A stretch of 64,000 nucleotides of DNA from Kineosporia babensis (GTDB taxonomy: Bacteria; Actinomycetota; Actinomycetes; Actinomycetales; Kineosporiaceae): contig NZ_JAJOMB010000009.1 in NCBI RefSeq assembly GCF_021129305.1, positions 186,001-250,000 on the forward strand, read 5' to 3'. Of this stretch, positions 34,059 to 60,213 are shown one piece after another. The position numbers and the translations under genes were made by a program. The stretch's first letter is position 1, and each line of letters opens with the position of its first letter. Under the pieces are notes generated by a model. It saw nothing but the letters and a program-made list of their open reading frames with translations. It ran no database searches and was not told where the DNA came from.

Positions 34059-34637
34059 GTGCCCAGAGTGGGGCTGACCCCGGAACGAGTGGTGGCCGGG
34101 GCCGAGGAACTGGCCGACGAGGTGGGTCTGCCGGCGATGACCCTGGCCGCGCTGGCGGCCCGGCTCGGGGTGAAGCTGCCCAGCCTGTACAAGCACGTCA
34201 GCGGGATGGAGGCGCTGCAGCGGGAGATCTCGTTGCGGGCGATGACCGAGCTGGGGCAGGTGATGTCGCGGGCCGCCGCCGGAAAAGCCGGTGATGCGGC
34301 GGTGATCGCCCTGATGGCGGCGGCCCGGCAGTGGATCAAGCAGCATCCGGGGCGGTACGCGACCACCGTGCGCGCTGCCTCCGCCACCGACGAGCAGGCG
34401 GTCGCGGTCAGCGAAGAGGCCCTGAGCGTGCTGATGGATGTGCTGGCCGGGTACGGCCTTTCCGGCAAAGACGCGGTGGACGGGGCCCGGGCGGTGCGCT
34501 CGGTGCTGCACGGCTTCTCCACGCTGGAGATCGCCGGCGGGTTCGGGATGCCGGTGGACGTGGACCGCAGCTACGACCTGCTGGTCCAGGCGTTGTGCCG
34601 CAGCCTCGGTTCCTGGGGGTCAGCGACGCCGGCGTGA
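34059..34637 (+). CDS. TetR/AcrR family regulator with WHG-type C-terminal domain
   Basis: 192 aa. The N-terminal TetR helix-turn-helix covers about 5-50 (LTPERVVAGAEELADEVGLPAMTLAALAARLGVKLPSLYKHVSGME). The C-terminal ligand-binding domain includes the WHG-like HGFSTLEIAGGFG segment. GTG 34059 has AGGGG 8 bp upstream. The upstream MFS is a likely target. The last 18 bp overlap the convergent acetyltransferase gene. Confidence 0.9.
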   Translation: MPRVGLTPERVVAGAEELADEVGLPAMTLAALAARLGVKLPSLYKHVSGMEALQREISLRAMTELGQVMSRAAAGKAGDAAVIALMAAARQWIKQHPGRYATTVRAASATDEQAVAVSEEALSVLMDVLAGYGLSGKDAVDGARAVRSVLHGFSTLEIAGGFGMPVDVDRSYDLLVQALCRSLGSWGSATPA

Positions 34638-35225
34638 ACGCACGGCATGCGCCGGGACCACTTCGCCCGGATCGACCGTGGCCCCGCGTAACACGGTGGC
34701 CCGGGCGGCGACCCAGGCGCCCTGGCCGATGTGGATCGGGGCGTTGTCGAACTCGAACGCCGGGTCGTCGTGCCGGTGACTACCGGTGCACAGCATCGAT
34801 TCCTGGCTCAGGCAGACGTCGTCCTCGATCGTGATCGGCTCGAGGTTGAGCAGCCACACTCCCTCACCGATCCAGCAGTCGTCGCCGATGCTCAGATTCC
34901 ACGGCCACTGCACCCGCACCCGGTGCCGGATCAGCACCCGCTCGCCGACCTGGGCCCCGAACGCCCGCAGGATCGCCGGGCGGAAACGGGCCGGCAGCCA
35001 CCACTTCGAGAACACCAGGTTCATCGTGGCGAACCAGGCGGCCTGCCACAGGGGCGAGCGCTTCTTGTCGTACCCGGCTCCGGTGAAGGCGGAAAGATCA
35101 CGTACCAGCAACGGACGCGGGGGCGCGGGTGGGTTGTGCGGGCTCAGCAGGGCGTCCAGCGAGGGGACAGCCCGCCGGCCCGGGCTGGGCACCGCGCGGA
35201 TGGTCTGGTCCACGTGCTCGCTCAT
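34620..35225 (-). CDS. Hexapeptide-repeat acetyltransferase, WcaF-like
   Basis: 201 aa. A 75-residue N-terminal extension (KKRSPLWQAAWFATMNLVFSKWWLPARFRPAILRAFGAQVG) is the WcaF/LbH type. It is followed by left-handed beta-helix repeats (LIRHRVRVQWPWNLSIGDDCWIGEG) and CTGSHRHDDPAFEFDNAPIHIGQGAWVAARATVLRG. It probably acetylates a sugar of the exopolysaccharide. Third gene of the operon, its ATG overlapping the glycosyltransferase stop by 4 bp. Confidence 0.87.
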   Translation of the reverse strand: MSEHVDQTIRAVPSPGRRAVPSLDALLSPHNPPAPPRPLLVRDLSAFTGAGYDKKRSPLWQAAWFATMNLVFSKWWLPARFRPAILRAFGAQVGERVLIRHRVRVQWPWNLSIGDDCWIGEGVWLLNLEPITIEDDVCLSQESMLCTGSHRHDDPAFEFDNAPIHIGQGAWVAARATVLRGATVDPGEVVPAHAVRSRRRR

Positions 35226-36604
35226 CGTTCGGTGCACTCCTCGATCAGCGCGTCCAGACGGGCCGCGGCGGCCTCCCGGCCCAGGTTGGCCTCGGCGTAT
35301 TTGCGCCCCAGCAGACCCATTTCCAGGCACTGGCCGGGGGCTGCGCGCAGCGCCAGCACGCTCGCGGCCAGTGCCGCGGGATCGCCGGGGGCCACCAGGT
35401 GGGCGGCGCCGTTGGTGCGGCGCAGTTCGGTGGCGGTGGCACCCTCCGGCCCGACCGCGGCGAGCACCGCCCGGCCGGCGGTCAGGTACGAGGTGAGCTT
35501 GCTGGGCAGCGACATGTCACCCACCCCGGGCCGCTCGTTGACCACCAGCAGATCGGCGGCAGCGAGCGACTGCGGGTACCGGACACCGTCCAAAGGCCCG
35601 ATGAAATCCAGGTTCTCCAGACCGTGAGCCTGGGCCCGGATCGCCTCGCGCTGGCTGCCGTCGCCGACGATCACGAACCGCACCCCGGCGTCGCGCCGGG
35701 CGCAGATCCGGGCCGCCTCGACCAGATTGCCCAGATCCTGCTTCAGGCCGATGTTTCCGGTGTGCACCACGGTGAACTGCTGCTGGGGCCAGCCCAGGGC
35801 GGCCCGGGCGTCGGGCTTGGACAGCCCGGAGGCGTGGATGTGAGTCCAGTTCGGCAGCAGCCGGATCCGCTCGTCCGGCACCCCGTAGGCGTGCAGCTGG
35901 CTGCGGAAGGAATCGCTGACCACAGCCACCAGATCGGCCCGGCGCAGGGCGTAGCGCTCCACCGCCGCAGTGGCCTGGGCGACCTTGCCGCCGCCCGCGA
36001 TGCCGCTCTGGCTGGCGGCTTTCGCCATCAGGTCCTGCACCACCACGATCAGCTTGGCCCCGGTGCGCTGCGCCATCTGGGCCGCCGCGACCGCCCCGCC
36101 CAGCGCCGGGGTGACCGCCACGACCACGTCGGGGCGCTGCTCGATCCCGGTGGTCAGGCAGTTCAGCAGGAAGGTGAGCTCGTAACCGGCCCGGCGCAGC
36201 GCGGTCTGCCGGCCGGGCACGTAGTGGCGCAGCCGCCGGATGGTCAGCCCGTCGTGCTGGCCCAGCCCGGCCACCCCGTCGAACGCGTCCCCGGTCTGGC
36301 GGGCCACCTCGCGGCTGCGCAGCCGGAACCGGTACTGCGGGTCGAGCTGCCAGTTCGGGTAGTGCGGCATGCCGGTGAGCACGGTGACGCTGCGGGCGCC
36401 GATCGCCAGGTGGTCGGCCATCCCGGTGGTGTACGGCGCGATCCCGGTCGGCTCGGGGGCGTAGTTGATCCCCACCACGAGCACGTGCTTGCCGGCCAGC
36501 GGCGAGGTGTGGCGCTGACTGGGGACTGCCGCCGACAACGGTGCTTTCGGCAGGATGACCGGCAGTTCGGCCTGTGGTTCCTGAACGGTCGGGCGTGGAT
36601 CCAT
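35222..36604 (-). CDS. WcaI-like glycosyltransferase (GT4 family)
   Basis: 460 aa. A 45-residue N-terminal extension precedes a GT-B fold. It opens HVLVVGINYAPEPTGIAPYTTGMADHL and TGMPHYPNW, typical of WcaI. The C-terminal Rossmann half has VVHTGNIGLKQDLGNLVEAARI, FVIVGDG, and the nucleotide-sugar segment ERPGVGDMSLPSKLTSYLTAGRAVLA. It would add a sugar to the lipid-linked repeat unit at the cytoplasmic membrane face. ATG 36604 follows the sugar-phosphate transferase stop by 2 bp. Confidence 0.9.
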   Translation of the reverse strand: MDPRPTVQEPQAELPVILPKAPLSAAVPSQRHTSPLAGKHVLVVGINYAPEPTGIAPYTTGMADHLAIGARSVTVLTGMPHYPNWQLDPQYRFRLRSREVARQTGDAFDGVAGLGQHDGLTIRRLRHYVPGRQTALRRAGYELTFLLNCLTTGIEQRPDVVVAVTPALGGAVAAAQMAQRTGAKLIVVVQDLMAKAASQSGIAGGGKVAQATAAVERYALRRADLVAVVSDSFRSQLHAYGVPDERIRLLPNWTHIHASGLSKPDARAALGWPQQQFTVVHTGNIGLKQDLGNLVEAARICARRDAGVRFVIVGDGSQREAIRAQAHGLENLDFIGPLDGVRYPQSLAAADLLVVNERPGVGDMSLPSKLTSYLTAGRAVLAAVGPEGATATELRRTNGAAHLVAPGDPAALAASVLALRAAPGQCLEMGLLGRKYAEANLGREAAAARLDALIEECTER

Positions 36605-36606
36605 CG

Positions 36607-38190
36607 TCAGTAGGCTCCCGAGCCATGGGTCACGGCGCGCACGGTGCGCCAGAGAATGGACAGATCGAGCGCCAGTGACCAGTTGTCGACATAGCGCAGG
36701 TCGAGCCGCAGCGACTCTTCCCAGGTCAGGTCCGAGCGGCCGGAGACCTGCCAGAGGCCGGTCATGCCCGGACGCACCCGCAGCCGGCGGATCTCGGTGG
36801 GGGAGTAGCCGGCCACCTCGCTGGGCAGCGGGGGCCGCGGGCCGACCAGGGACATGTTGCCGCGCAGCACGTTCAGCAGCTGGGGCAGTTCGTCCAGCGA
36901 GTACTTGCGCAGCACCCGGCCGATCCGGGTGACCCGGGGGTCGTTGCGGATCTTGAACAGCACCCCGTTGCCCTCGTCGGCCTTGGCCAGCTCCTTCAGC
37001 CGGGCCTCGGCGTCGGTGACCATCGAGCGGAACTTGTACACGGTGAACTCGCGGCCGTCGGTGCCCACCCGGGTCTGCCGGAACAGCGCCGGGCCCCGGC
37101 TGGTCAGCCGCACGGCCAGGGCCAGGGCCAGCATCAGTGGGCCGAGCAGGACCAGCAGGACCAGGGTGGCGCTGTAGTCGAAGGCCACCTTCATCGCCCG
37201 CCGGGTGCCCTTGAGCACCGGGCGTTCCAGGTGCAGCAGCGACATCCCGGCCAGCGGGCGGATCGAGAGCCGGGGCCCGGCCACCTCGACGATGCCGGGC
37301 GAGACCAGCAACTCCACCCCGCGGTCCTCCAGGGCCCAGGACAGCCGGCGCAGGGTGTGCCCGGAAAGGTCGGGCTGGGAGACGATGGCCACCGCGTCGG
37401 CGGCGGAGTACTCCACGGCCGCGAGCACCTGGGTGGGGGTGCCCAGCACCGGGACGTCGTGCACGTGCGAGAGCGAGACCTCGTCGGCCGGCAGGCAGAC
37501 CCCGACCGGCACGATGGCGTGGTGCAGCGAGTTCTCGGTGTGCCGCAGCTGCTCGATCAGGGCGATCGCGGCGTGGCTGCGCCCGACCACCAGGGTGCGG
37601 TGCAGCCCGCGCCCGGCCGCCCGCGAGCGGCGCAGCCCGATCCGCAGCAGGCAGCGGCCGAAGATGCTGCCCAGCACCGCGAACGGCACCGTCATCAGGG
37701 CCAGCGTGCGCGGGAAGTTGCCGTTGAGGATGTAGGCCACGGCGGCCACGGTGGCGAACAGGATCAGCCCGGCCCGGACCAGCCGCTGGAACTCGTCGGC
37801 GCCCGCCCCGACGTAGCGGTGCTCGTAGGTGCGGTACAGCCAGGCCAGGGTGACCCAGGTGACCGGCAGCAGCACGGGCAGCAGCAGGTACACGTCGGGA
37901 ACGGTCCCGAACCGCACCCGTACCGCGAGCGCGGCGCCCAGCGCGGCCACCGTCCCGTCCCAGCCCCGTGCATACCGGCTGTAGCGCTCGAGCAGGTCGC
38001 GCGGGCGCTCCGGGCGGCGGGTGATCCGGTGATTGGTCCGCGCCGAGGGCACCAGCAGTTCGTCGAAGGCGACCTCGGCGACGGGCCCCGGGTCGGGGTT
38101 CGCCACCAGTTGCTGAGGCACGGTGGCGGTCGTCGACGCGGGGAGCTGGTCGATGGACAGCGCTGCTCCTGAGGCCTCGGAAACGGACAT
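36607..38190 (-). CDS. Polyprenyl glycosylphosphotransferase initiating exopolysaccharide synthesis, copy 1
   Basis: 527 aa of the WcaJ/WbaP type. A cytoplasmic N-terminus comes first, then four membrane helices (about 80-180), a Rossmann-like cytoplasmic domain (LVVGRSHAAIALIEQL), a fifth membrane helix (about 335-360), and the catalytic sugar transferase domain. The last has VYKFRSMVTDAEAR, KYSLDELPQLLNVLRGNMSLVGPRPPLP, and PGMTGLWQVSGRS. It moves a sugar phosphate onto undecaprenyl phosphate. First gene of a three-gene EPS operon. It is a clear paralogue of 54634-56223, including the regulatory middle (VSPGIVEVAGPRLSIRPLAG). Confidence 0.92.
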   Translation of the reverse strand: MSVSEASGAALSIDQLPASTTATVPQQLVANPDPGPVAEVAFDELLVPSARTNHRITRRPERPRDLLERYSRYARGWDGTVAALGAALAVRVRFGTVPDVYLLLPVLLPVTWVTLAWLYRTYEHRYVGAGADEFQRLVRAGLILFATVAAVAYILNGNFPRTLALMTVPFAVLGSIFGRCLLRIGLRRSRAAGRGLHRTLVVGRSHAAIALIEQLRHTENSLHHAIVPVGVCLPADEVSLSHVHDVPVLGTPTQVLAAVEYSAADAVAIVSQPDLSGHTLRRLSWALEDRGVELLVSPGIVEVAGPRLSIRPLAGMSLLHLERPVLKGTRRAMKVAFDYSATLVLLVLLGPLMLALALAVRLTSRGPALFRQTRVGTDGREFTVYKFRSMVTDAEARLKELAKADEGNGVLFKIRNDPRVTRIGRVLRKYSLDELPQLLNVLRGNMSLVGPRPPLPSEVAGYSPTEIRRLRVRPGMTGLWQVSGRSDLTWEESLRLDLRYVDNWSLALDLSILWRTVRAVTHGSGAY

Positions 38191-38753
38191 CGCAATTCGC
38201 CCCCCACAGCACGGAAAAAGGCCCGACCGGAACTGACCCCCATTGGCCGAAACGGACCCGGGCCCAGGCTAGGGCGAATGATCTTGCAGCGCTGGACTTT
38301 CCGGAAACCTCAAGAGTTCAGGCCCGTTCGGGTGGCACACCCGCACCGCCCGGCCGAGCCGAGAATTCGCCGATCGGCCGATGGTGCGGGAAATGGCCAC
38401 CCGGGCCAATTCGGGCATTCGCCCCGGCTGACTCACCGGGCATCACCGAAAGGCAAAAGAAATGCAGAAGAAAGGCCTTCGGTGTGTGCCCGCCGACGAC
38501 GGCCTCGTTGCCCTGCGCCCACGGGATCCGGCGATCTGCCGTCGCCGTCCCTGGCGTGGCTGGTTGCTCAGTGTTGCTCGATCACTTTCTGCGATCAGAA
38601 CCGTACACCACGTGAAGCCGTCATGTGGCACTCGGGTATTGACGGGTTGCATTGGGTGATTGATGGTGATTTGACCGGCTGGTAGGGCGTGGGTGCGGCA
38701 CACCCGCGCGCGGGCGGTGGAGCTTCTACCCTCAGATGCTCAGGGAGCGACGT
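38191..38753. other. 563-bp divergent intergenic region of EPS pair 1
   Basis: Short open frames exist here on both strands, but none has a start, ribosome site and composition that persuade me. The region should hold the promoters of the EPS operon (-) and of the unknown membrane protein gene (+). It is locally less GC-rich than its surroundings (around 38450-38670). I see no known riboswitch. Confidence 0.5.
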
Positions 38754-40217
38754 GTGACTGTGAACGAGACCACCGGGAGAGCAGGATCGTCCGCGGCGGG
38801 CCGGCATCTGGCGGAGCCGAGCCCATCCTCCGCACCCCCCGACGACCTGGTCACCCGACTGCTGTGCGCGGCCTGTTACCTGCACGACGACATCGCCGAC
38901 TTCGCCCACGCCTCACTGCTTTTCCCCAGCCGCCGGGCGTTCAGCCCGAACTGGCAGGTGGACGTGGTGGCGCTGGCCCGGCACGCGAGCCGGGCGAAAG
39001 AGCTGCGGACCGGCCGGGACCGCTGGCTGAACCGCGCCGTCTGGTACGTCGGGGCCGGCCTGATCGGCGCCTTCGTGCTGCTGGTGGCCGGTGTGCTGAA
39101 CCTGTTCCAGCTGGTCCTGGCGGTGATGTTCCTGCTGTTCTGGGCCTACGTGATCGCGGTCGGGATCGTGTTCAACCAGCTGCGCACGGCCCGGCGGGCG
39201 GCGGTCGACGTGGTGCTCGACCCGGCTGCCGACCCGCCCCCGCCGCTGGCCAGCCGCTCGGCCGAGGAGGCCCTGCACGACCTGAACCGCTGCAACGCGG
39301 TGCTCTACCGGGGCGACGGCGCACCCTTCGTCGGTTCCGGGGTCAAGCTGGACTCCTGGCAGATCACCATCGACATCAGCAAGCGCACCGAACCGGAGTT
39401 CGAGCCGGTCACCGGGGCCGAGCTGCAGGCGGCGCTGCTGGAGCTGCTGCCCGGCAAGATCTCGCCCCGGCCGATCGGGGCGCATCGGCTGTACGTGCGC
39501 GGCGGGGCCAGCGCGTTGTCGGTGGATCTGTACCGGGTCGGGCCGCTGGAACGGGATCTGACCGAGCAGCTGAACTTCCGCCGCCCGGTCACCGTGGTGC
39601 CGACCGCACAGCTGCGGCCCTACTTCGACCGGCGGGACGAATCGGCCCGGGTCTACACCTGTTTCCAGCTGTCGTCCTGGGGCGGGCAGGTGATCGTCTC
39701 GCTGTTCGTGCGGGCCCACGTGGCCAACCAGACGCTGTTCATCGAGGGGCAGGTGTACGCGCTGCGCCCGCTGCACCCGGAGCTGTACGAGGCCCGTTCG
39801 CTGCCGGTGGGCACGGCCACGGAGCTGCAGACGCTGGGCCCGATCGCCCTCGCCACCGCCACTTCCCTGCTGGTGAACGCGCCCTCGACGATGCTGAAGA
39901 ACATCCGGACGGCGCGGCTGGACGTGGCCAACGCGGCCGAGGCCGACTCCGAGATCGCCAGCCGGCGGGACGTGGACTTCGGCGCGGTGAAGAGCGTGCG
40001 CGAGGAGGTCACCAACTTCGATCTGGGCGAGCACTTCGCCGCGGCCGACGAGGAGCTGTACTACCAGGTCTTCGTGCGGCGGACGATGGAGTGCATCGAC
40101 ACGTTCCTGACCACGCGCGGGGTGGACACCACCGAGTTCTCCGGGCAGAGCGCCGAGATCATCTCCCAGACCACCACCAACGCCCGGACGATCTACGGGG
40201 CGGCGACCGACGGCTGA
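38754..40217 (+). CDS. Unnamed membrane protein family divergent from EPS transferase, copy 1
   Basis: 487 aa. A soluble N-terminus contains FSPNWQVDVVALARHASRAKE. Two membrane helices follow (about 95-140), then a large cytoplasmic domain of some 320 residues. Blocks shared with its paralogue at 56629-58215 are PNW-VD-VALARHA, PFVGSG-with-SW, RRPV, YTCFQLSSWGGQVIVSLFVR, ALRPLHPE, and HFAAADEELYYQVFVRR. I chose GTG 38754, 6 bp after AGGGAG. No family name comes to mind. Its conserved place next to a sugar-phosphate transferase suggests a role in polymer assembly or its control. The 3' end overlaps the ArsR gene by 25 bp. Confidence 0.75.
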   Translation: MTVNETTGRAGSSAAGRHLAEPSPSSAPPDDLVTRLLCAACYLHDDIADFAHASLLFPSRRAFSPNWQVDVVALARHASRAKELRTGRDRWLNRAVWYVGAGLIGAFVLLVAGVLNLFQLVLAVMFLLFWAYVIAVGIVFNQLRTARRAAVDVVLDPAADPPPPLASRSAEEALHDLNRCNAVLYRGDGAPFVGSGVKLDSWQITIDISKRTEPEFEPVTGAELQAALLELLPGKISPRPIGAHRLYVRGGASALSVDLYRVGPLERDLTEQLNFRRPVTVVPTAQLRPYFDRRDESARVYTCFQLSSWGGQVIVSLFVRAHVANQTLFIEGQVYALRPLHPELYEARSLPVGTATELQTLGPIALATATSLLVNAPSTMLKNIRTARLDVANAAEADSEIASRRDVDFGAVKSVREEVTNFDLGEHFAAADEELYYQVFVRRTMECIDTFLTTRGVDTTEFSGQSAEIISQTTTNARTIYGAATDG

Positions 40218-41194
40218 ACGCCCGACGCCTGAGCGCCCGATGCGGCCAGCAACTGCTCGGCCAGGTCGGATCGCCGGTAGAGCACCGAGCGGCCGTGCCG
40301 GACTGCCACCAGCAGTCCGGCCGCCCGCAGGGCCCGCAGGTGCTGGTTGACCGCGGTGGGGGTGACGCCCAGACCGAGAGCCAGTTCGGTCGAGGACGCG
40401 GGGGCGGCCAGGCGCTGCAGCAGCGCGGCCCGGTGTGATCCGAGGACGCCGGCCAGGGCCTCGGAGGTGGGCAGCGGGGCCGATTCCCAGAGGGTTGCCC
40501 GGCCTCGGGGCAGGTAGATGATCGTGGGCGGTTCGTCGGGGGAGACCGGTACGCAGGCGGCACTGGTCCACAGGCTCGGTACCAGGGTGAGGCCCTGGTC
40601 CGCCGGCCGGATCCAGTCCGGCCCGGCGCCGGATTGCACTTCGACGGTGTCGCCGTCCATCCGTACACGGTCGGACAGGTCCGCGAACATGGTGGCCAGG
40701 CCGTGCTGGGCGATCTGGCGGCCTCGATAGGTGACGTCCGCCTCCAGTACCGCTCTCATGCGCGGCCAGTCCGGAGCGAAGCACAACTGCCAGTACTCCT
40801 CCAGTGCGCTGATCATCCGCCGGAGCGCGTTGCGACCCTGCAGCACCTCGGGCACTGGCTCGTCGCCGGGGTAGGTCGCCGCCACGTCCCGGCGGACCGT
40901 GGCGGCGGGGACCGACTCCAGCCGGGCCAGCTCCTCCTCGAACCGGGTCAGCGGTGAGGAGGGCTGCCGCGTAAGGAAATCCGGCACCCAGCGCCGGGAC
41001 GAGACCAGTGCCTGCAGCATCTCGGTGTCCAGTTGCCCGTGCAGCGGCCGGGTCCGGCGGATCCACGGCAGGTGCAGCGGATACCGGCCCGGCTCACGCC
41101 AGCTGCGCAGCGACAGCACCAGCTCGTTGAGCGGCGAGATGCCGAACCGCACGTCGGCCAGTGCGGTGCCGGTCAATGCGTAGCGCACCACCAT
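40193..41194 (-). CDS. ArsR/SmtB-type winged-helix regulator with long N-terminal domain
   Basis: 333 aa. The first 230 residues form a domain opening VVRYALTGTALADVRFGISPLNELVLSLRSW, as in DUF5937-type regulators. The C-terminal winged helix covers about 250-320: EALAGVLGSHRAALLQRLAAPASSTELALGLGVTPTAVNQHLRALRAAGLLVAVRHGRSVLYRRS. There is no metal-binding Cys set, so a small organic ligand is more likely. It is divergent from an MFS gene with 55 bp between starts, suggesting it controls that transporter. The frame extends upstream to 41545 only as antisense. Confidence 0.85.
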   Translation of the reverse strand: MVVRYALTGTALADVRFGISPLNELVLSLRSWREPGRYPLHLPWIRRTRPLHGQLDTEMLQALVSSRRWVPDFLTRQPSSPLTRFEEELARLESVPAATVRRDVAATYPGDEPVPEVLQGRNALRRMISALEEYWQLCFAPDWPRMRAVLEADVTYRGRQIAQHGLATMFADLSDRVRMDGDTVEVQSGAGPDWIRPADQGLTLVPSLWTSAACVPVSPDEPPTIIYLPRGRATLWESAPLPTSEALAGVLGSHRAALLQRLAAPASSTELALGLGVTPTAVNQHLRALRAAGLLVAVRHGRSVLYRRSDLAEQLLAASGAQASGVQPSVAAP

Positions 41195-41249
41195 GAAGCA
41201 GAACGCTACATCGATCGCGGTCGGCGGCCGAGCGGGCTGCACTGTGCGC

Positions 41250-42461
41250 ATGCCCACTGCACCGCACCGGCGAGATCCGGTTCTGCAAGCGCTGTACCTT
41301 TCTTCGGCCGCGACGGCCACGACGCTCGGCCTGCTCTTCAGTCTCAGCGCGCTGTACCTGACCCGGGTGGCCGGCCTCGGTGCGCGGACGGTCGGAGCCG
41401 GTCTGACCATCGCCGGGATCTTCGCCATCGCAACGACTTTTCTGGCCGGCCGGCTCTGCGACCGGTACGGCACCCGAACGGTCATGGCCGCGGCGGCGGT
41501 GATCCAAGCTGCCGCGCTGACCGGATACTGCCTGCTGCAGGGCAACGTCGCGCTCTTCGTCCTGCTGGCCTGCGCCCTGCTGGGAGCTCAGGGGGTTCAG
41601 GGCACGGCCAAGGTCACGCTCGTCGCCCTGGTCTTCGCCGGAAGCGGCCGGACCGCAGCCCGGGCCAAGATGCGAGTGATCACAAACATTTTCGTGGCGG
41701 TGGGCTCCGGACTGGGGGCTCTGACGCTCGCCATCGGCACGGCTTCGGCCTGTCGGAGCGCCCTGATCGCCGCTGCGGTCCTGATGCTGTGCTCGCCGCT
41801 GCCGCTGGCCCGGCTGACCTTACCCAGCGCCCCGCCGCCCACGCCCGGCGCTCCAGCACCGCTGCGCGACCGCCGATACCTGGCCCTGGCCGCCCTGAAC
41901 GGGGTGATCTACGTCCAGTTCGAGGTGCTCACCCTGGGCCTGCCGTTGTGGGTGGCCACCCGGACCGAGGCCTCGGACGCCCTGATCGGGATCTTCATCG
42001 TGCTCAACACCGCCGTGGTGACGGCCTTGCAGGTTCCGGCCACCCGCCTGGTCAACGGGGTGCCGGCGGCCGGCCGTACGGTCTTCGGCGCCACCGGACT
42101 GCTGGCCCTGGCCTGTGTGCTCTATCCGGTCGCGGCCTGGTTCGATGCCCTGGTGGCCAGCATCGTCCTGGTGTTCGCCGTCCTGGTGCACTCCTGCGGC
42201 GAGGTGCTGTCCGAGGCGGGTGGCTGGGAACTGGCCTTCGAGCTGGCCGATCCCGCCCGTCCCGGCGCCTATCAGGGAGTCAGCCAGACCGGTGCTGCCG
42301 TAGGGGCGGCGCTGGCGCCGGTGGTGATCACCTCCAGCGCCCTCGCCTACGGTTTACCCGGCTGGTTGTTCCTGGGCGGGGCCTTCGTTGCGGCCGGTGC
42401 CGGCACCCGGATGCTGAGCGCCACCACTACGAAACCGGCGCCGGCAACCGTCCCTCAATGA
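41250..42461 (+). CDS. MFS transporter under ArsR-type control
   Basis: 403 aa, twelve helices, drug/H+ antiporter-like. It has an early GRLCDRYGTRTVMAAAA loop between helices 2 and 3 and a second-half RLVNGVPAAGRTVFG. ATG 41250 (MPTAPHRRDPVLQALYLSS) starts just before helix 1; the frame to 41193 would overlap the regulator start. It probably exports a toxic small molecule sensed by the divergent ArsR-type protein; this is inferred from arrangement. Confidence 0.85.
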   Translation: MPTAPHRRDPVLQALYLSSAATATTLGLLFSLSALYLTRVAGLGARTVGAGLTIAGIFAIATTFLAGRLCDRYGTRTVMAAAAVIQAAALTGYCLLQGNVALFVLLACALLGAQGVQGTAKVTLVALVFAGSGRTAARAKMRVITNIFVAVGSGLGALTLAIGTASACRSALIAAAVLMLCSPLPLARLTLPSAPPPTPGAPAPLRDRRYLALAALNGVIYVQFEVLTLGLPLWVATRTEASDALIGIFIVLNTAVVTALQVPATRLVNGVPAAGRTVFGATGLLALACVLYPVAAWFDALVASIVLVFAVLVHSCGEVLSEAGGWELAFELADPARPGAYQGVSQTGAAVGAALAPVVITSSALAYGLPGWLFLGGAFVAAGAGTRMLSATTTKPAPATVPQ

Positions 42462-48277: not shown

Positions 48278-48801
48278 GCTGGCTCCGCCGTCCCTGATCG
48301 AGCGCGTGCCGTTCGCCCGGGATCTGATCCGCACCAGGTGTTGGGGTGTGCTCTGCGGGAACGCTCCGGCCTTCTCGGGCGTGGTGTTCACCGGATTCCC
48401 TCCACAACTGCGGACCGCGGCCGGTGGTCGGTGGGATGGTGCGTGGATGACGGACCACCCGGCAGCGGTCTCGGCCGTCACCCGAGCCTAATGGGTTGTT
48501 TTGCACATAAGTAGCTGAACCGGGCATCTGCCGGTGAGGTGCCGCTGACCTGCTTCGATGGCGCGGAAAAGGGATGAGCGGAGAGGCCCGGCCGGGACTT
48601 GACCGACGATGTCGGTGCAGCAGGAGTGCCATAACTCGGTTCGGACACGCTGAAGCTTTAACTCACAGTTGATGTCCACTACAGTGAGCGACGCCAGCTC
48701 GGATGGCAGGTGGAAACCCGGACGCGCCGCAGGGATCGCGACGCCGAGCTTCGGACCTGGGACCGGCGGGGTCCCCAGAACTGGTTGAGAGGGGCTTCTG
48801 C
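48278..48801. other. 524-bp divergent intergenic region
   Basis: There is no supported gene. It contains the upstream region of the EAL gene (-) on the left, and on the right a plausible + promoter at 48658-48685 for the repeat-protein operon. GC content drops near 48500 and 48650. Confidence 0.55.
48658..48685 (+). promoter_or_regulatory. Possible promoter of the 90-aa/1407-aa operon
   Basis: TTAACT (48658-48663) and TACAGT (48680-48685) are separated by 16 bp in a locally AT-richer stretch. The leader to GTG 48802 would be about 110 nt. Confidence 0.3.
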
Positions 48802-49074
48802 GTGCCGGGGGACCTTTCGCAGATCGATCTGTCGGGTGCTGCCCTGGGCGGCGCCGGAGTCCTTCTCGTCGTGCTCGGGTGTGTCGTGGTGCTTCTGGCC
48901 GCCCGCTACCGCCGGGAGAACGCCCAGCTGAGAGCGAGAAACACCGAGTTGTCGATGGAGAACGACCGCTGGCACGAGGATTTCGCCGCGGCGACCGGTG
49001 AGCTGACCGCCCTGCGTGAGGGCCTGCACGAGAACTGCGCCTACCGCCCGGCGCCACGAGCGGAGGCATCATGA
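48802..49074 (+). CDS. Small membrane protein with coiled coil
   Basis: 90 aa. One membrane helix at about 13-35 (GGAGVLLVVLGCVVVLLAA) is followed at once by a heptad-like helix (RYRRENAQLRARNTELSMENDRWHEDFAAATGELTALREGL) that should form a cytoplasmic coiled coil. GTG 48802 lies 7 bp after AGAGGGG. Its stop overlaps the start of the 1407-aa gene (ATGA), so the two are co-translated and may form a complex. No family recognised. Confidence 0.7.
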   Translation: MPGDLSQIDLSGAALGGAGVLLVVLGCVVVLLAARYRRENAQLRARNTELSMENDRWHEDFAAATGELTALREGLHENCAYRPAPRAEAS

Positions 49075-53758: not shown

Positions 53759-54640
53759 GTGCGGGGCGCGGACATCCCGGAAGGGACTGCGCGGATGGGG
53801 CAGATGGGCATGACCCAGCAGGTGCCGAGTGGCGCGATGAGCCAGCCACCGTTCGGTGATGTACAGCCGCCGGCCGCGGTGCTCTTCTCGGTCGCGGAAG
53901 GGAACACGCGGCGTGCGGTCCCGCCTGGCCAGGAGGTCACGGTCGGCCGCAGCCGCACGTGCGACCTGCGCATCGCCCACGAACCGGAGGACGACTACGT
54001 CTCCCGGCACACCGCCACGCTCCGGGTCCTGGCCGACTGCGTCCTGATCCGCAACGTCTCCTCTTCGAAACTGCTCACGCTGCGCCCGCATACGGGTGCG
54101 GCGCGTACGGTCGAGCCCGGCGCCGCCACCACCTCGCTGCCCTGGCGCCAGTTCGACGTGGTGGTCACCGGGCGCTTCGGCCGCGACTACGTGGTCCAGG
54201 TGGACGCCCGAGGCCTTCCGCCCTCGCACAACGAGCGGGAGGACGAGACGGACTCCTCGCCCACCGTGGTGGTGCCCCCGATCATGCTCACCCCGGCCCA
54301 GCGCCGGCTGCTCACCGCGTTGTGCGAGCCCCTACTCACCCGCTCCGGCCCGGAGGCCAGCGCCGCCACCTACCGGCAGGTGGCCGAGCGGGTCGGCCGG
54401 CGGCCGGGTTACGTGCGCAACGTGTTCAAGCAGGTGCGCGAGAAGCTGGACAGCCACGGCGTGCCCGGCCTGGTCTCCCGGGAGCGGCCCGACGCGGCCG
54501 AGGACTTCCGGATGCCGCTGGCCATGTGGGCGATCCGCAGCGGCACGATCACCCGGGCCGACCTGGCCCAGGCCCAGACCTGGTTCGCGGTGGCCGCCGC
54601 CAACCCGCAGGAGCCGCACGAGGACGACGAGACTCAGTAG
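53759..54640 (+). CDS. FHA-domain protein with C-terminal helix-turn-helix
   Basis: 293 aa. An FHA domain spans about 35-135, with VTVGRSRTCDLRI and VSRHTATLRV carrying the phosphothreonine-binding Arg and Ser/His. A linker follows, then a winged-helix-like region (about 180-245: LTPAQRRLLTALCEPLLTR, TYRQVAERVGRRPGYVRNVFKQVREKL). It may couple Ser/Thr kinase signals to transcription; no kinase is in the window. GTG 53759 has a strong GGAGG 6 bp upstream, better than the internal ATG at 53795. The 3' end overlaps the convergent sugar-phosphate transferase by 7 bp. Confidence 0.85.
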   Translation: MRGADIPEGTARMGQMGMTQQVPSGAMSQPPFGDVQPPAAVLFSVAEGNTRRAVPPGQEVTVGRSRTCDLRIAHEPEDDYVSRHTATLRVLADCVLIRNVSSSKLLTLRPHTGAARTVEPGAATTSLPWRQFDVVVTGRFGRDYVVQVDARGLPPSHNEREDETDSSPTVVVPPIMLTPAQRRLLTALCEPLLTRSGPEASAATYRQVAERVGRRPGYVRNVFKQVREKLDSHGVPGLVSRERPDAAEDFRMPLAMWAIRSGTITRADLAQAQTWFAVAAANPQEPHEDDETQ

Positions 54641-56223
54641 GCGCCCTCGCCCCGGACCACGGCGCGCACCGTGCGCCAGAGGATGCTCAGGTCCAGGGTC
54701 ATCGACCAGTTGTCCACGTAGCGCAGGTCCAGCAGCAGCGACTGCTCCCAGCTGAGGTCGGAGCGGCCGGAGACCTGCCAGAGCCCGGTCATGCCCGGGC
54801 GCACCCGCAGCCGGCGCACCGCGTCGCTGGAGTAGCCGGCCACCTCACGGGGCAGCGGCGGGCGCGGGCCGACCAGCGACATGTCACCCTTGGCCACGTT
54901 GATCAGCTGCGGCAGCTCGTCCAGCGAGTAGCGGCGCAGGAAGGCCCCGATCGGGGTGATCCGGGGGTCGGCCCGCATCTTGAACAGCACCCCGTTGCCC
55001 TCGTCCTGCTCGGACAGCTCGCGCAGCCGGGCCTCGGCGTCGGTGACCATCGAGCGGAACTTGTAGATCGAGAACTCCCGGCCGCCGACCCCGACCCGGG
55101 TCTGCCGGAACAGCGCCGGGCCCGGGCTGGTGGTCCGCACGGCGACGGCGATGACGATCAGCAGGGGCGAGAGCACGAGCAGGACGGCGGTGCCGAGCAG
55201 CCGGTCGAAGGCGGCCTTCAGCAACAGGTCCCCGCCGGTGGCCGTGGGCTGTTCCAGGTGCAGCAGGGAGAGCCCGGCCAGCGGGCGGATCGAGAGCCGG
55301 GGCCCGGCGACCTCGACGATGCCGGGGGAGACCACGAGCTCCACGTCCATGTCCTCCAGCGCCCAGGCCAGCTCCCGCAGCGGGTGGCCCCATAGATCGG
55401 GGTGCGAGACCACGGCCACTACATGCGCACCGGTGGCCTCTACGGCGGCCAGGACGTCTTCCGGTCCGCCCATCACCGGCACGCCGTCCACGTCGCTGGG
55501 GGTGACCGGGCTGGCGGCCAGGCAGATGCCGACCGGAACCATGCCCCGGTACGAGGTGCTGCGCAGCAGATGCACCAGTTCCACGGCGCCCTCGGCGTCG
55601 CCCAGGACGATGGTCCGCTCCAGGCCGATGCCGGCCGCCCGGGCGTGGTGCAGCCGCACCCGCAGGACCTTGCGCGCGGCCAGGGCCCCGAGGACGGTGA
55701 CCGGCACGGCGAAGATCACCACCGAACGCGAGACGTTGGTGTGGGAGAAGTAGCTGGTCATCGCGATGGCCGCGAACAGCACCACGCCCGAGCGCAGCAC
55801 CCGCTGAAACTCCTCGGTGCCGGCCCCCAGGAAGCGCCGCTCGTAGACCCGGTCCAGGCCGGCGATGCCGATCCAGATCACCGGCAGGACCACCGGGATC
55901 CAAGTCCAGAAGCCGTGTGCCTCACCGTCGAAGCGGAGCATGATCGCCAGCACGGCGGCCGCGCTCGCGCTCAGCGCATCGGCGAGCAGGACGTTGCGGC
56001 GGTACTGGTTCAGCGCGGCCCGGGCGTCGATGTCGGCGTGCCGGGGCAGGCCCCGCGGGCCCGTCGACGACGCTGGCACTGCACCCGCACTGCCCGCCAC
56101 CCCCGGTGCATCCGCAGGGCCCGGATCAATGGTTCCGGTGGGACCGGCGGGGCCATTGATCCGGTTGTGCGGGCCGGGTTCGCCGGTTTGCTTCTTACCC
56201 CGCGGGCCTACTCGCCGGGACAT
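54634..56223 (-). CDS. Polyprenyl glycosylphosphotransferase, copy 2
   Basis: 529 aa, with the same architecture as 36607-38190: four N-terminal helices, a Rossmann-like middle (IVLGDAEGAVELVHLL), a further helix, then the catalytic domain with IYKFRSMVTDAEAR, RYSLDELPQLINVAKGDMSLVGPRPPLP, and PGMTGLWQVSGRS. The N-terminal 60 residues differ and are Gly/Pro-rich. It should load a sugar phosphate onto undecaprenyl phosphate for a second polymer, or for the same one under other control. Here no glycosyltransferase follows it on the same strand. ATG 56223 is preferred to an upstream TTG. Confidence 0.92.
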   Translation of the reverse strand: MSRRVGPRGKKQTGEPGPHNRINGPAGPTGTIDPGPADAPGVAGSAGAVPASSTGPRGLPRHADIDARAALNQYRRNVLLADALSASAAAVLAIMLRFDGEAHGFWTWIPVVLPVIWIGIAGLDRVYERRFLGAGTEEFQRVLRSGVVLFAAIAMTSYFSHTNVSRSVVIFAVPVTVLGALAARKVLRVRLHHARAAGIGLERTIVLGDAEGAVELVHLLRSTSYRGMVPVGICLAASPVTPSDVDGVPVMGGPEDVLAAVEATGAHVVAVVSHPDLWGHPLRELAWALEDMDVELVVSPGIVEVAGPRLSIRPLAGLSLLHLEQPTATGGDLLLKAAFDRLLGTAVLLVLSPLLIVIAVAVRTTSPGPALFRQTRVGVGGREFSIYKFRSMVTDAEARLRELSEQDEGNGVLFKMRADPRITPIGAFLRRYSLDELPQLINVAKGDMSLVGPRPPLPREVAGYSSDAVRRLRVRPGMTGLWQVSGRSDLSWEQSLLLDLRYVDNWSMTLDLSILWRTVRAVVRGEGAY

Positions 56224-56628
56224 CGGGACAAACCCCCACAATGCGCCAGTCTGGTCATCTACCTGAGCCCGGGCGGAAGGCGGTCAGGCCGCCGTACCGG
56301 TTCTGGGCGGTCTCACCCTAGGGCCATTCATCACTGCCTGAGGTCGCTTATTCACAACTGGTGACATTGACATCGTTGCTGGTCAGGGTCGCGTCCTTAA
56401 TGTGGGGAATTGACACGGAATTGAGGACGATGTTGGGTTCGGCTCTGGTATCGCTGAGCCGACCGGAAGCACCGCGGGGCGGGAAAGATGAGGGGACTCG
56501 CCCCGTCCTGTCGCTCTTGCGGTATTGCTCGGTGCATCATCTAGGTCGGGATAAGCACCGTGGCTGCACCGGACGGGTGAACTACTCTCGTCCGTGACCC
56601 CACGAAGTGATCGACGCAGGGAGTCTGA
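56224..56628. other. 405-bp divergent intergenic region of EPS pair 2
   Basis: I see no gene here. It should contain the promoters of the sugar-phosphate transferase (-) and of the unknown membrane protein (+). TTGACA-like hexamers occur around 56366-56420, but I cannot pair them with a good -10. Confidence 0.5.
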
Positions 56629-58215
56629 ATGCCGCCCTCGAAGACTTCGCGACACCGCGGAGCAGGCCGGACCACTGTCGAGTCCGGATCGCGGCTGGTT
56701 CCCCGCCCGTCCCCGGAAGAGCGGGTCCGGCGGGCCCTGCAGTTCCCGCTGGGGGCGGTCCGGCGCGAAGCGGCGCCGCCCGGCGGCGAGGGCGGCGGCC
56801 GGAGCTGGAACGGCAGCCCCCGGCCGGCGTTCACCCCGGCCGGTGACGGCATCACCCGGCAGCTGTGCTCGGCCATCCATCTGAACGCCTCGTTCGGCGG
56901 CGAGGTCCTCAACGACCTGGTCTACCCGGACTGGAAGGCGATGGCGCCGAACTGGCACATCGACGGGGTCGCCCTGGCCCGGCACGCGGCCCAGGCCAAG
57001 GAGCGCCGGGAGCGGCGTGACCTGTGGCTGCTGGTGGTCACCGCCGCGGTGGCGATCATCGCCGAGGTGGCGCTGGTCTCGATCTTCACCGGCGGCCTGG
57101 GCCCGGGCGGCCTGCTGGCGCTGATGTTCTTCGCCGTCGTCGGCGCCTACCTGGCCGGGTTCGCCATCGTCTGGGTGCACTACCGAGCGGTGCACGACTC
57201 GGCCCTGTCCTCGATCGGGATCCGCGGGCTGAACGCGGTCGAGCCGCCGCCGCTGCCGGACGACGTGGAGCAGGCGATCCGCAGCTCGATGCGGGCCAAC
57301 GTGATCGTCTTCGCCGGCAAGACCCCGTTCAACGGCTCCGGTGAGCAGATCGACCGCTGGAGCTTCACCGTCGACACCCGGGTCGGCACGCTGGACGCCG
57401 CGCTCGGCAAGCGCACCGAGCCGCGCGAGTTCGAGGCGGTCGACCTGCACCGCTACCTGATCGAGCAGATCCCGCTGACCCTGGAGAACAAGCCCAAGGT
57501 CGGCCAGCGGCTGTACGTGATCGGGGGGCACGCCCGGGCCGTGGGCGGGCTGTTCCGGCACGGCCCGGTGCTCGACGACCCGGACTACGAGCTGCGTTTC
57601 CGCCGCCCGGTCAGCGAGGTCAAGCGGGAGCGGATCGAGCAGTCGCTGCGTAACCAGCACCGCTCGGCCCGGCCCTACACCTTCTTCGAGGTCACCGGCT
57701 GGGACGGCCAGGTCGTGGTCACCCTGTTCGTCCGGGTGGAGAAGCGCGGGCCGATGCTCGAGGTGGAGCTGGCGGTCTGCGCGCTGCGCCCGCTCAAGCC
57801 GGACTACGGCGACGTGGTGAAGATCCCGCTGGGCCCGGGGGCGCACCGGCTGCCGCTGCTGCGCACCGTGTTCCCGATGGTCTGGCCGCTGCTGTGGGGC
57901 AGCCCCTCGCGGGCGATCCGCAAGATCCGGATGGACCGGCAGGAGGCCGCCGACCGGGTCGACCTGGACCAGCAGCTGGAGGAGCGCAACGACCTGAGCT
58001 GGGCGGCGGCGCCCGGCCTGCGCGACCGGACGGCGGCCGCGGCCAACGGCAACCACTTCGGCGCGGCGGACGAGAAGATCTACCACAACGCCTTCAAGCG
58101 CCGTTCGATCGACGTGCTGCGGGCCTTCCTGGTGGAGCAGGACGTGGACGTGAAGGAGTTCGACCTGGCCGCCTCGTTCATGGTGCCGGGAGTGGCCCCG
58201 AACAACGCCGGCTGA
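56629..58215 (+). CDS. Unnamed membrane protein family divergent from EPS transferase, copy 2
   Basis: 528 aa and a paralogue of 38754-40217. A basic/Gly-rich N-terminus comes first, then APNWHIDGVALARHAAQAKE, two membrane helices (about 138-185), and a cytoplasmic domain of about 340 residues with TPFNGSG, RRPVSEVKRE, YTFFEVTGWDGQVVVTLFVR, ALRPLKPDYG and HFGAADEKIYHNAFKRRSIDVLRAFL. AGGGAG lies 5 bp before the ATG. Conservation of both sequence and gene arrangement with copy 1 suggests the family works with the transferase. No known catalytic motif is visible. Confidence 0.78.
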   Translation: MPPSKTSRHRGAGRTTVESGSRLVPRPSPEERVRRALQFPLGAVRREAAPPGGEGGGRSWNGSPRPAFTPAGDGITRQLCSAIHLNASFGGEVLNDLVYPDWKAMAPNWHIDGVALARHAAQAKERRERRDLWLLVVTAAVAIIAEVALVSIFTGGLGPGGLLALMFFAVVGAYLAGFAIVWVHYRAVHDSALSSIGIRGLNAVEPPPLPDDVEQAIRSSMRANVIVFAGKTPFNGSGEQIDRWSFTVDTRVGTLDAALGKRTEPREFEAVDLHRYLIEQIPLTLENKPKVGQRLYVIGGHARAVGGLFRHGPVLDDPDYELRFRRPVSEVKRERIEQSLRNQHRSARPYTFFEVTGWDGQVVVTLFVRVEKRGPMLEVELAVCALRPLKPDYGDVVKIPLGPGAHRLPLLRTVFPMVWPLLWGSPSRAIRKIRMDRQEAADRVDLDQQLEERNDLSWAAAPGLRDRTAAAANGNHFGAADEKIYHNAFKRRSIDVLRAFLVEQDVDVKEFDLAASFMVPGVAPNNAG

Positions 58216-58299: not shown

Positions 58300-60213
58300 A
58301 TGACGACGACCTCGCCCGGCCTCGACGCCGTCCCCCGGGTAGCCACGACCGACGACGGCGTGAAAGGTGGGCAAGGCGACCCGCGGTGGGCCCGCCCGGC
58401 CCTGATCGTGCTGCTCCTGGCCACCGCGGTGCTGTACATCCAGAATGTGGCGGTCTCCGGCAACGGCAACGACTTCTACGCCGCCGCCGTGCAGGCCGCC
58501 TCGAAGAGCTGGAAGGCCTGGTTCTTCGGCTCCTTCGACGCGGCCAACTTCATCACCGTGGACAAGCCCCCGGCCTCGACCTGGGTGATGGGCCTGTCGG
58601 CGCGGATCTTCGGCTACAGCAGCTGGAGCATGCTGGTGCCGCAGGCGCTGGAGGCAGTGGCCGCGGTGGCCCTGCTGTACGCGGCGGTGAAGCGCTGGTT
58701 CGGCCCGGCCGCCGGTCTGTTCGCCGGGGCGGTACTGGCCCTGACCCCGGCCGCGGCGCTGATCTTCCGCTTCAACAACCCGGACGCGCTGCTGGTGCTG
58801 CTGATGACGGCGGCCGCGTACTGCATGGTCCGGGCCCTGGAGAACGCCTCGACCAAGTGGATGCTGCTGGTCGGCACCGCCCTGGGCTTCGCCTTCCTGA
58901 CCAAGATGCTGCAGGGCTGGCTGATCGTGCCCGCCCTCGGCCTGGCCTATCTGGTGTGCGCGCCGACCTCGGTGCCGCGCCGGATCCTGCAGCTGCTGGC
59001 CGGCCTGGGCGCGATGATCGTCTCCTGCGGCTGGTGGATCGCCATCGTCTCGCTCTGGCCGGCCGACTCCCGCCCGTACGCCGGTGGCTCGGAGAACAAC
59101 TCGGTGCTGGAACTGGTCTTCGGCTACAACGGCCTGGGCCGGATCTTCGGCGGCTCCGGCAACGGCGGGGGCGGCGGAATGGGCGGCGGTGGTGGCATGC
59201 AGGGCGGCGTGGCCGGTTCGTCGTTCGGCGGCCCGACCGGCCTGAACCGGCTGTTCGGCTCGGAGATGGGCAACCAGATCTCCTGGCTGCTGCCGGCCGC
59301 GCTGATCGCCCTGGTGGCCGCGCTGATCATCACCTGGCGCCGGCCGCGCACCGACCGCACCCGGGCCGCGCTGATCATCTGGGGCGGCTGGTTGCTCACC
59401 ATCTGGCTGATCTTCAGCTACATGAAGGGCACCATCCACCCTTACTACACGGTGGCGATGGCCCCGGCCGTGGCCGCGGTGATCGCGGTGGCCGGCAAGA
59501 CCTTCTGGGACGCCCGCGACCTCTGGCGGGCCCGTCTCGCCCTGGCCGCGATGATCCTGGCCAGCGGCTGGTGGTCGTACACCCTGCTGGCCCGCAACGC
59601 CGACTGGCACCCGGAACTGCGCTACCTCGTCCTCGTGGTGACCGTGATCGCCGGGATCGGCCTGATCATCCCGCTGCGCCTGGCCACCCGGGCCCTGGCC
59701 GCGCTGGTCCTGGCCGGTCTGCTCGGCGGGGTGGCGGGTAGCGCGGCCTACGCCGTGGCCACCACCGCCAACTCGCACACCGGATCCATTCCCTCGGTCG
59801 GCCCGTCCACCTCCAGCGAGTTCGGCGGAGGCATGGGTGGCGGAGGCATGGGAGGTGGCGGCATGGGCGGTGGGTCCAGCGTGAGCCAGGACCTGGTCGA
59901 GTTGCTGCAGAATGCCGGCACCAAGTGGGCGGCCGCCACGGTCAGCTCGAACTCGGCCGCACCGCTGCAGTTGGCCAGCGACCAGCCGGTGATGGCCATC
60001 GGCGGTTTCTCGGGTAGCGATCCGGCTCCCACGCTGGAAGAGTTCCAGGACTACGTCTCCGCCGGTGAGGTGCGGTACTTCATCTCCGGCGGGATGGGCG
60101 GCGGCCGTGGCGGTGGGCCCGGCGGCAACAGCGAGATCGCCGAATGGGTTGCGGCGAACTACACCGCGACTACCGTAGGAGAGCAGACGGTCTACGACCT
60201 CCAGGCGTCGTAG
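58300..60213 (+). CDS. GT39-family membrane glycosyltransferase with Gly/Met-rich linkers
   Basis: 637 aa, ArnT/PMT-like. TM1 is followed by the first extracytoplasmic loop, SGNGNDFYAAAVQAASKSWKAWFFGSFDAANFITVDKPPAS, with the catalytic-type acidic residue. At least ten more helices follow, and then a C-terminal extracytoplasmic domain of about 130 residues. Three Gly/Met-rich stretches interrupt it: near residue 290 (GGGGGMGGGGGMQGG), near 510 (GGGMGGGGMGGGGMGGG), and near 600. It should move a sugar from a polyprenyl-phosphate donor to a surface acceptor. ATG 58300 is the natural start. Confidence 0.87.
   Translation: MTTTSPGLDAVPRVATTDDGVKGGQGDPRWARPALIVLLLATAVLYIQNVAVSGNGNDFYAAAVQAASKSWKAWFFGSFDAANFITVDKPPASTWVMGLSARIFGYSSWSMLVPQALEAVAAVALLYAAVKRWFGPAAGLFAGAVLALTPAAALIFRFNNPDALLVLLMTAAAYCMVRALENASTKWMLLVGTALGFAFLTKMLQGWLIVPALGLAYLVCAPTSVPRRILQLLAGLGAMIVSCGWWIAIVSLWPADSRPYAGGSENNSVLELVFGYNGLGRIFGGSGNGGGGGMGGGGGMQGGVAGSSFGGPTGLNRLFGSEMGNQISWLLPAALIALVAALIITWRRPRTDRTRAALIIWGGWLLTIWLIFSYMKGTIHPYYTVAMAPAVAAVIAVAGKTFWDARDLWRARLALAAMILASGWWSYTLLARNADWHPELRYLVLVVTVIAGIGLIIPLRLATRALAALVLAGLLGGVAGSAAYAVATTANSHTGSIPSVGPSTSSEFGGGMGGGGMGGGGMGGGSSVSQDLVELLQNAGTKWAAATVSSNSAAPLQLASDQPVMAIGGFSGSDPAPTLEEFQDYVSAGEVRYFISGGMGGGRGGGPGGNSEIAEWVAANYTATTVGEQTVYDLQAS

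Follow-up and report, generated by a model that had tools for sequence, protein, structure and literature searches.

Two divergent gene pairs in the Kineosporia babensis window

The analyzed window is a stretch of 64,000 nucleotides (contig NZ_JAJOMB010000009.1, positions 186,001 to 250,000) from the 9.4 Mb genome of Kineosporia babensis, which is assembled in 89 contigs. It contains two divergent gene pairs, each consisting of a transferase gene on the minus strand (PHPT1 or PHPT2) and a membrane protein gene on the plus strand (MEM1 or MEM2), located at 36607-40217 (pair 1) and 54634-58215 (pair 2) (Table 1). PHPT1 and PHPT2 shared 291 of 514 residues (533 bits), and MEM1 and MEM2 shared 154 of 467 (E 2e-75 in a single comparison); at such similarity a chance likeness is excluded for both. 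A previous sequence-only reading of the window had reported that the unit recurred as paralogues in the same orientation, and the open reading frames (ORFs) confirmed this. The divergent gaps were also similar as reported. Counted from the first possible starts they were 545 bp (pair 1) and 387 bp (pair 2), while the 563 and 405 bp given before fit slightly later starts. PHPT2 probably starts at the ATG at 56223, because the preceding G-run, read as a ribosome-binding site, was conserved in six genomes. A total of four Bac_transf genes were detected in the genome. MEM1 as query retrieved MEM1, MEM2 and one remote relative, and MEM2 retrieved one more remote relative.

Table 1. Features in and around the two divergent gene pairs (positions in the window)
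Feature	Position	Strand	Evidence
PHPT1, large monotopic phosphoglycosyl transferase (predicted)	36607..38190	-	Bac_transf 2e-68; TIGR03025 422 bits
Divergent intergenic region, pair 1	38191..38735		conserved blocks in 6-genome alignment
GATCATTCGCCCTAG, 15-base site upstream of PHPT1	38269-38283	-	pattern match
MEM1, membrane protein of unnamed family	38736..40217	+	orthologue in 6/6 genus genomes
PHPT2, PHPT1 paralogue	54634..56241	-	57% identity; Bac_transf 2.2e-67; TIGR03025 415 bits
Divergent intergenic region, pair 2	56242..56628		conserved blocks in 6-genome alignment
GATGAATGGCCCTAG, 15-base site upstream of PHPT2	56318-56332	-	pattern match
MEM2, MEM1 paralogue	56629..58215	+	33% identity; orthologue in 6/6 genus genomes
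WcaF-like hexapeptide O-acetyltransferase, pair 1 only	34620..35330	-	NF007797 2.7e-49, 167 vs 192 bits needed
WcaI-like GT4 glycosyltransferase, pair 1 only	35222..36484	-	Glyco_trans_4_4 2.6e-19; NF007640 2.2e-76, 257 vs 276 bits needed
Probable protein with FHA and winged-helix domains, convergent with PHPT2	53759..54640	+	FHA 0.0065, HrcA_DNA-bdg 0.0024, both below cut-off
PMT_2/YkcB-type membrane mannosyltransferase	58300..60213	+	PMT_2 5.2e-32, YkcB_C 2e-31

Phylogenetic analysis of the two families

In the MEM tree (37 proteins, including 18 of the 36 class proteins found), MEM1 and MEM2 each formed one clade and the two clades were sisters (support 100/99). Joining the MEM copy of G001, a family genome from another genus, to MEM1 or MEM2 alone was rejected (approximately unbiased test, p-AU 0.004). 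In a PHPT tree with near outgroups (26 rows), PHPT1 and PHPT2 were likewise sisters (99/96). Joining PHPT1 or PHPT2 alone to the PHPT3 group, which represents a third transferase of the genome, was rejected with p-AU 0.018 and 0.021, values to be read in the light of a change of rows made after an earlier PHPT tree had been seen, because the program flagged its far outgroups as long branches. Ten of the 30 rows were dropped in this change (six far outgroups, one near-copy and three "b" rows, which were the "a" ORF shortened by the locus end), and six were added (four near outgroups, one from locus L157 and the true second copy of G010). The PHPT3 sequences of G007 and G009 were in neither tree. 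Outside the K. babensis genome, four of 393 class genomes had a match to PHPT2 with E of 1e-140 or lower (G422, G518, G585 and G646), and these supplied the four near outgroups.

Two results weaken the case for a joint duplication. The first PHPT tree (30 rows, far outgroups) did not resolve the question and left the position of the PHPTs open, a constraint uniting PHPT1 with PHPT2 costing 0.54 log units (p-AU 0.448). In addition, the ratio of MEM to PHPT distances had a mean of 2.2 between the copies (1.9-2.8), compared with medians of 1.51 and 1.16 for orthologues, so that the simultaneity of the two duplications is not cleanly shown; a second distance comparison pointed the same way. The higher ratio between the copies may reflect faster divergence of MEM after duplication, saturation or differing dates. 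Duplication of the whole divergent unit, as proposed in the sequence-only reading, is the simplest account of the two sister relationships and very probably the correct one.

All four genes are under purifying selection. The ratio of nonsynonymous to synonymous substitution rates (dN/dS) was at most 0.48 in all 27 comparisons, with 0.04-0.48 for MEM1 (10 comparisons), 0.07-0.30 for MEM2 (10), 0.26-0.39 for PHPT1 (6) and 0.29 for PHPT2 (1).

The transferases

PHPT1 and PHPT2 are predicted large monotopic phosphoglycosyl transferases (monoPGTs) with the catalytic residues in place. Both exceeded the TIGR03025 cut-off of 295.55 bits (422.2 and 415.3 bits). Like the large monoPGTs WbaP, WcaJ and EpsZ, they displayed a Bac_transf catalytic domain, the DX12P motif and the DE dyad, as well as a mid-protein CoA_binding_3 match and N-terminal hydrophobic helices. 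Motif and catalytic dyad, as defined in PMC12802240, were located at D338-P351 and D433-E434 in PHPT1 and at D346-P359 and D441-E442 in PHPT2. Among solved structures the best relatives of PHPT1 were WbaP, and the alignment spans PHPT1 from residue 132 to the C-terminal end. However, both proteins fell under the equivalog cut-offs of WcaJ (TIGR03023, 322.7 and 321.6 vs 410.75 bits) and WbaP (TIGR03022, 324.6 and 324.0 vs 403 bits), therefore no specific sugar was assigned to them. They also differ from other large monoPGTs in their pairing with MEM, which among the genomes examined was met in Kineosporia only.

PHPT3 is located on contig C14, flanked by a peptidyl-tRNA-hydrolase-like gene on one side and CysQ/CysD/CysN-like genes on the other; these names come from reading the translations, not from a family search. 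This gene order recurs in G001, G003 and G010, which belong to other genera, suggesting that PHPT3 occupies the common locus of the family and that PHPT1 and PHPT2 are extra copies in Kineosporia. No MEM gene was detected within the stretches fetched around the other two PHPT loci of the genome.

The membrane proteins

MEM1 and MEM2 had no family match at 1e-3 in Pfam and NCBIfam. At the cut-off used, one hydropathy segment was detected in MEM1 (127-145) and two in MEM2 (134-152 and 163-181), with basic residues flanking both sides, and the alignment indicated that MEM1 may hold a weaker first hydrophobic segment too. Judged by hydropathy and the arginine-rich flanks, MEM is probably a helical hairpin with both ends and the bulk of the protein in the cytosol.

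Assignment of MEM to the Rv2743c family (PF25587) was rejected, because MEM1 reached 18.8 bits and the Pfam cut-off is 27.7; two of 11 MEM members matched PF25587 at E up to 10, the best with E 0.00081. A match to FA_desaturase was below its cut-off and, in MEM1, lay over the membrane region, as is the case for Rv2743c. Neither MEM1 nor MEM2 was matched by PADLOC at E up to 1, and the MEM alignment gave a single hit (E 0.34) against solved structures.

Distribution of MEM and PHPT

Both pairs, with PHPT and MEM as divergent neighbours, were present in all six Kineosporia genomes searched. Among 13 genomes of the family, PHPT homologues occurred in every one and MEM homologues in seven, comprising the six genus genomes (MEM1 and MEM2 in each) and the single copy of G001. 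The six family genomes without MEM belong to four further genera. A narrow-group MEM profile matched eight of 396 genomes of the order, with remote matches only in one of them (G332), and a wider profile including the remote paralogues matched 63 of 394 class genomes. Part of all class hits was sampled as 40 stretches from 36 genomes, each covering 8 to 20 kb with the MEM hit inside. A MEM gene was called in 36 of these stretches, and five were shorter than 19.9 kb: contig ends truncated four of them, and the requested range limited the fifth (L147). L157 was the sole class stretch with PHPT genes, which are separated from MEM by about 6 kb or more.

Tail and head motifs of MEM relatives

A total of 47 MEM loci were compared, 11 of the family and 36 of the class. 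A same-strand ORF of 60-330 residues was located directly downstream of MEM in 39 of them. The eight loci without such an ORF were L049 (G001), the PHPT-linked L054-L057, L150, L157 and L178. The first 60 residues of the downstream protein resembled the last 60 residues of its own MEM, with a mean score of 67.2 compared with 31.2 for permuted pairs (maximum 40.1 in 10,000 permutations); partner residues 61-120 gave a mean of 25.2 and shuffled heads 24.5. Kinship inflates the permutation contrast, whereas the contrast with shuffles is independent of kinship, though the shuffles kept the glycine-rich composition. In 20 loci the own partner was the best match of the 39, in 29 it was among the top three, and in 32 of the 39 loci the match exceeded 99% of shuffles.

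The seven exceptions include the C13-type loci L051, L058, L060 and L061, where the downstream protein starts with a zinc-ribbon-like stretch (a weak Pfam match, from L051 only). These four loci form a second MEM subtype with no tail motif and the zinc-ribbon-like protein downstream, and the downstream protein of L051 (11229-11996) contains an NADase_transloc (F5/8 type C) domain (1.6e-9). The downstream gene of L168 (10482-11234) encodes a nucleoside phosphorylase domain (Pfam 5.1e-24) behind the matched motif, and L173 looked similar by eye. PMC8195603 names this domain among the predicted effectors in bacterial conflict systems, and its occurrence in the two partners hints at an effector. 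In L153 the partner is similar to DUF5955, with a score just under the cut-off; no paper joining DUF5955 with Streptomyces was found in the literature search. Protein kinase and PP2C phosphatase genes were located just past MEM and its small partner in L142 (11110-13367, by Pfam) and, judged by the start of the sequences, in L144 and L149.

Compared with the 39 heads, the tails of MEM1 and MEM2 did not reach the 95% limit set by shuffled tails, and they showed no match to the N-termini of their own PHPTs. The tail of the G001 MEM was borderline (best score 38, limit 39).

A layout in which a C-terminal motif matches the N-terminal motif of the neighbour is that of the bacterial amyloid signalling sequences (BASS) described in PMC7889193. 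Most MEM relatives examined likewise share a C-terminal/N-terminal motif with the product of the adjacent gene, a likeness of layout; MEM1 and MEM2 themselves differ in having no motif. No match of the NOD-like receptor (NLR) type was detected with Pfam in seven MEM relatives and five downstream proteins, a scan in which no Bell model was sought. No description of the tail/head module was among the literature matches listed. The MEM relatives across Actinomycetes with their small gene (L139-L178, L050 and L059) are a candidate NLR-free tail/head signalling pair.

Neighbouring genes and synteny

The glycosyltransferase and acetyltransferase genes beside PHPT1 resemble those of the colanic acid enzymes WcaI and WcaF, yet score under the model cut-offs. 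The real start of the acetyltransferase may lie further inward, given the overlap of its ORF with the next gene. The sequence-only reading held that only pair 1 had kept these two genes. Their presence at pair 1 only was borne out, whereas pair 1 may either have retained or have gained them. Neither gene was located beside PHPT in four loci of other genera (G001, G003, G010 and G011), the PHPTs of which belong to the PHPT3 group; in G001 a glycosyltransferase homologue (49%) lies about 9 kb from PHPT.

Synteny was compared in G005 and G009 for both pairs and in G007 and G006 for the pair 1 side only. The PMT_2 gene starts 84 bp after MEM2 on the same strand, and the same order was found in both genomes compared; no PMT_2 gene was detected around pair 1 in any of the four genus loci. 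The probable FHA/winged-helix protein had counterparts of 85-87% identity in G005 and G009. The two genes that immediately follow MEM1 (40193-42461), a helix-turn-helix regulator and a major facilitator superfamily transporter, were unmatched in the four other genus loci, possibly indicating a recent insertion, while the pair itself was kept.

The pattern GATNANTNGCCCTAG had three matches in the genome, one upstream of PHPT1, one upstream of PHPT2 and one on contig C37 read as coding sequence; two of the three are partly built in, because the pattern was derived from those two sites. As a shared promoter motif it was not taken as evidence of co-regulation, since by a rough hand estimate chance matches of such quality are expected when two intergenic regions are compared.

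Other genes of the window include a GGDEF-EAL protein between the pairs (46331-48481, minus strand), matches of which also occurred near the MEM homologues of L049 and L050, maybe by chance. A 1407-residue ORF (49071-53294, plus strand) combines an N-terminal hydrophobic helix with a long repetitive, charged and probably disordered remainder; its ends were matched in G005 and G009 and its middle was unmatched. A luciferase-like monooxygenase of the MsnO8 family (62709-63692, minus strand) exceeded the TIGR03558 cut-off.

Possible function of the duplicated pairs

The account that we tentatively favour, with slightly less than even confidence, is as follows. In the ancestor of Kineosporia, the divergent two-gene unit was very probably duplicated whole. 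MEM would have been recruited from an actinobacterial family whose other members mostly have a small gene downstream and a tail/head motif matched to it, neither MEM1 nor MEM2 having the motif. Each MEM may then serve its own PHPT as a regulator or adaptor bound to the membrane, and the two would gate the initiation of different glycans. Pair 1 would lead to an O-acetylated product with the adjoining WcaI-like and WcaF-like enzymes, and pair 2 would act together with the FHA-type regulator and the membrane mannosyltransferase. Joint action of PHPT and MEM is plausible. Both copies were kept with both of their halves in the six genomes, the genes are under purifying selection, and the intergenic regions contain conserved blocks.

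Several observations weigh against this account. PHPT was absent, in called genes and in a six-frame DNA search, from 39 of the 40 class stretches around MEM relatives, and from the 19.9 kb fetched around the G001 MEM, the nearest outgroup; PHPT occurred without MEM in six of the 13 family genomes. Any partnership with PHPT thus looks special to Kineosporia. The sequence-only reading had named synteny of the pair in other actinobacteria as a check, and the class stretches did not display it; common occurrence of the membrane protein without the transferase was named there as refuting the proposal, and such occurrence was the rule among the class relatives and in G001, but not in the six genus genomes. 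Its view that a copied unit implies joint work holds for the copying, while joint work is weakened and only plausible. Most genes of the region kept their order in four other genus genomes, and because most neighbours are equally syntenic, adjacency within the genus is weak evidence of partnership. AlphaFold predictions on four sequences gave a mean pLDDT (predicted local distance difference test) of 46.6 for MEM1 and 38.7 for PHPT1, although the latter belongs to a family with solved structures, so that the set-up failed and is uninformative on MEM.

A precedent for the account is the EpsZ-EpsW system of Myxococcus, which shows that initiating transferases can have dedicated protein activators. 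According to PMC12802240, EpsW activates EpsZ, a large monoPGT, probably through direct contact, and the reason given for this need is that EpsZ has no hairpin. The stretch of PHPT1 whose position suggests that it matches the WbaP hairpin aligned ungapped, thus the reason given for EpsZ is not evident in PHPT1. PHPT-MEM resembles EpsZ-EpsW in the proposed logic, a dedicated protein controlling the initiating transferase. However, EpsW is a soluble single-domain response regulator, whereas MEM is a membrane protein without a Pfam match at the threshold used and its partnership with PHPT is proposed.

Among the alternatives, the one that survives best, at roughly one chance in three, is that the unit was duplicated as DNA but its two products do different work. 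In that case MEM1 and MEM2 would serve in envelope or stress signalling like their relatives and stand beside PHPT through history and shared intergenic DNA. The scarcity of PHPT near MEM relatives, their usual small downstream gene, the kinase and PP2C genes of L142 and the general synteny across the genus are all consistent with this. However, MEM1 and MEM2 have neither the tail motif nor the partner of most relatives, which suggests a changed role, and both halves of both copies survived in all six genus genomes. It is improbable that MEM acts later than the transferase, for example with the PMT_2 mannosyltransferase or in glycan export, with divergence merely providing co-regulation. The PMT_2 gene follows MEM2 in all three genomes, but is not matched near pair 1 in the four loci compared, and the bulk of MEM is predicted to be cytosolic whereas PMT_2 enzymes have an extracytoplasmic active site. 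Independent pairs, with two PHPTs and two MEMs joined twice, are very improbable, because the far-outgroup tree and the differing distance ratios that would allow them are opposed by the near-outgroup PHPT and MEM sister groups and by a divergent orientation identical twice.

A bolder extension would regard the MEM relatives as a widespread actinobacterial module, in which a membrane protein signals to a small adaptor or a nucleoside-phosphorylase-type effector via an amyloid-like beta-arch motif shared by tail and head and free of NLRs; the Kineosporia MEM would have lost its tail, been rewired and duplicated, and would now directly control two transferases. This is unlikely as a whole. The relatives nevertheless bear on a question asked in a 2021 review (PMC7889193), namely whether NLR-independent signalling amyloids exist in bacteria.

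The favoured account, in which each MEM would control its own PHPT, may also touch on the life cycle of the genus. In Actinoplanes, PMC13390465 describes such a polymer as the main matrix of the sporangium, and it is a speculation by analogy that the sporangial life of Kineosporia needs regulated polysaccharides; no report on Kineosporia polysaccharide genes was among the literature matches listed. How a glycan is chosen among initiating transferases that share a limited lipid carrier is given as an open question in PMC12802240. If the favoured account is true, a lineage-specific membrane partner co-duplicated with its transferase would represent a second, unrelated control of initiation beside EpsW-EpsZ.

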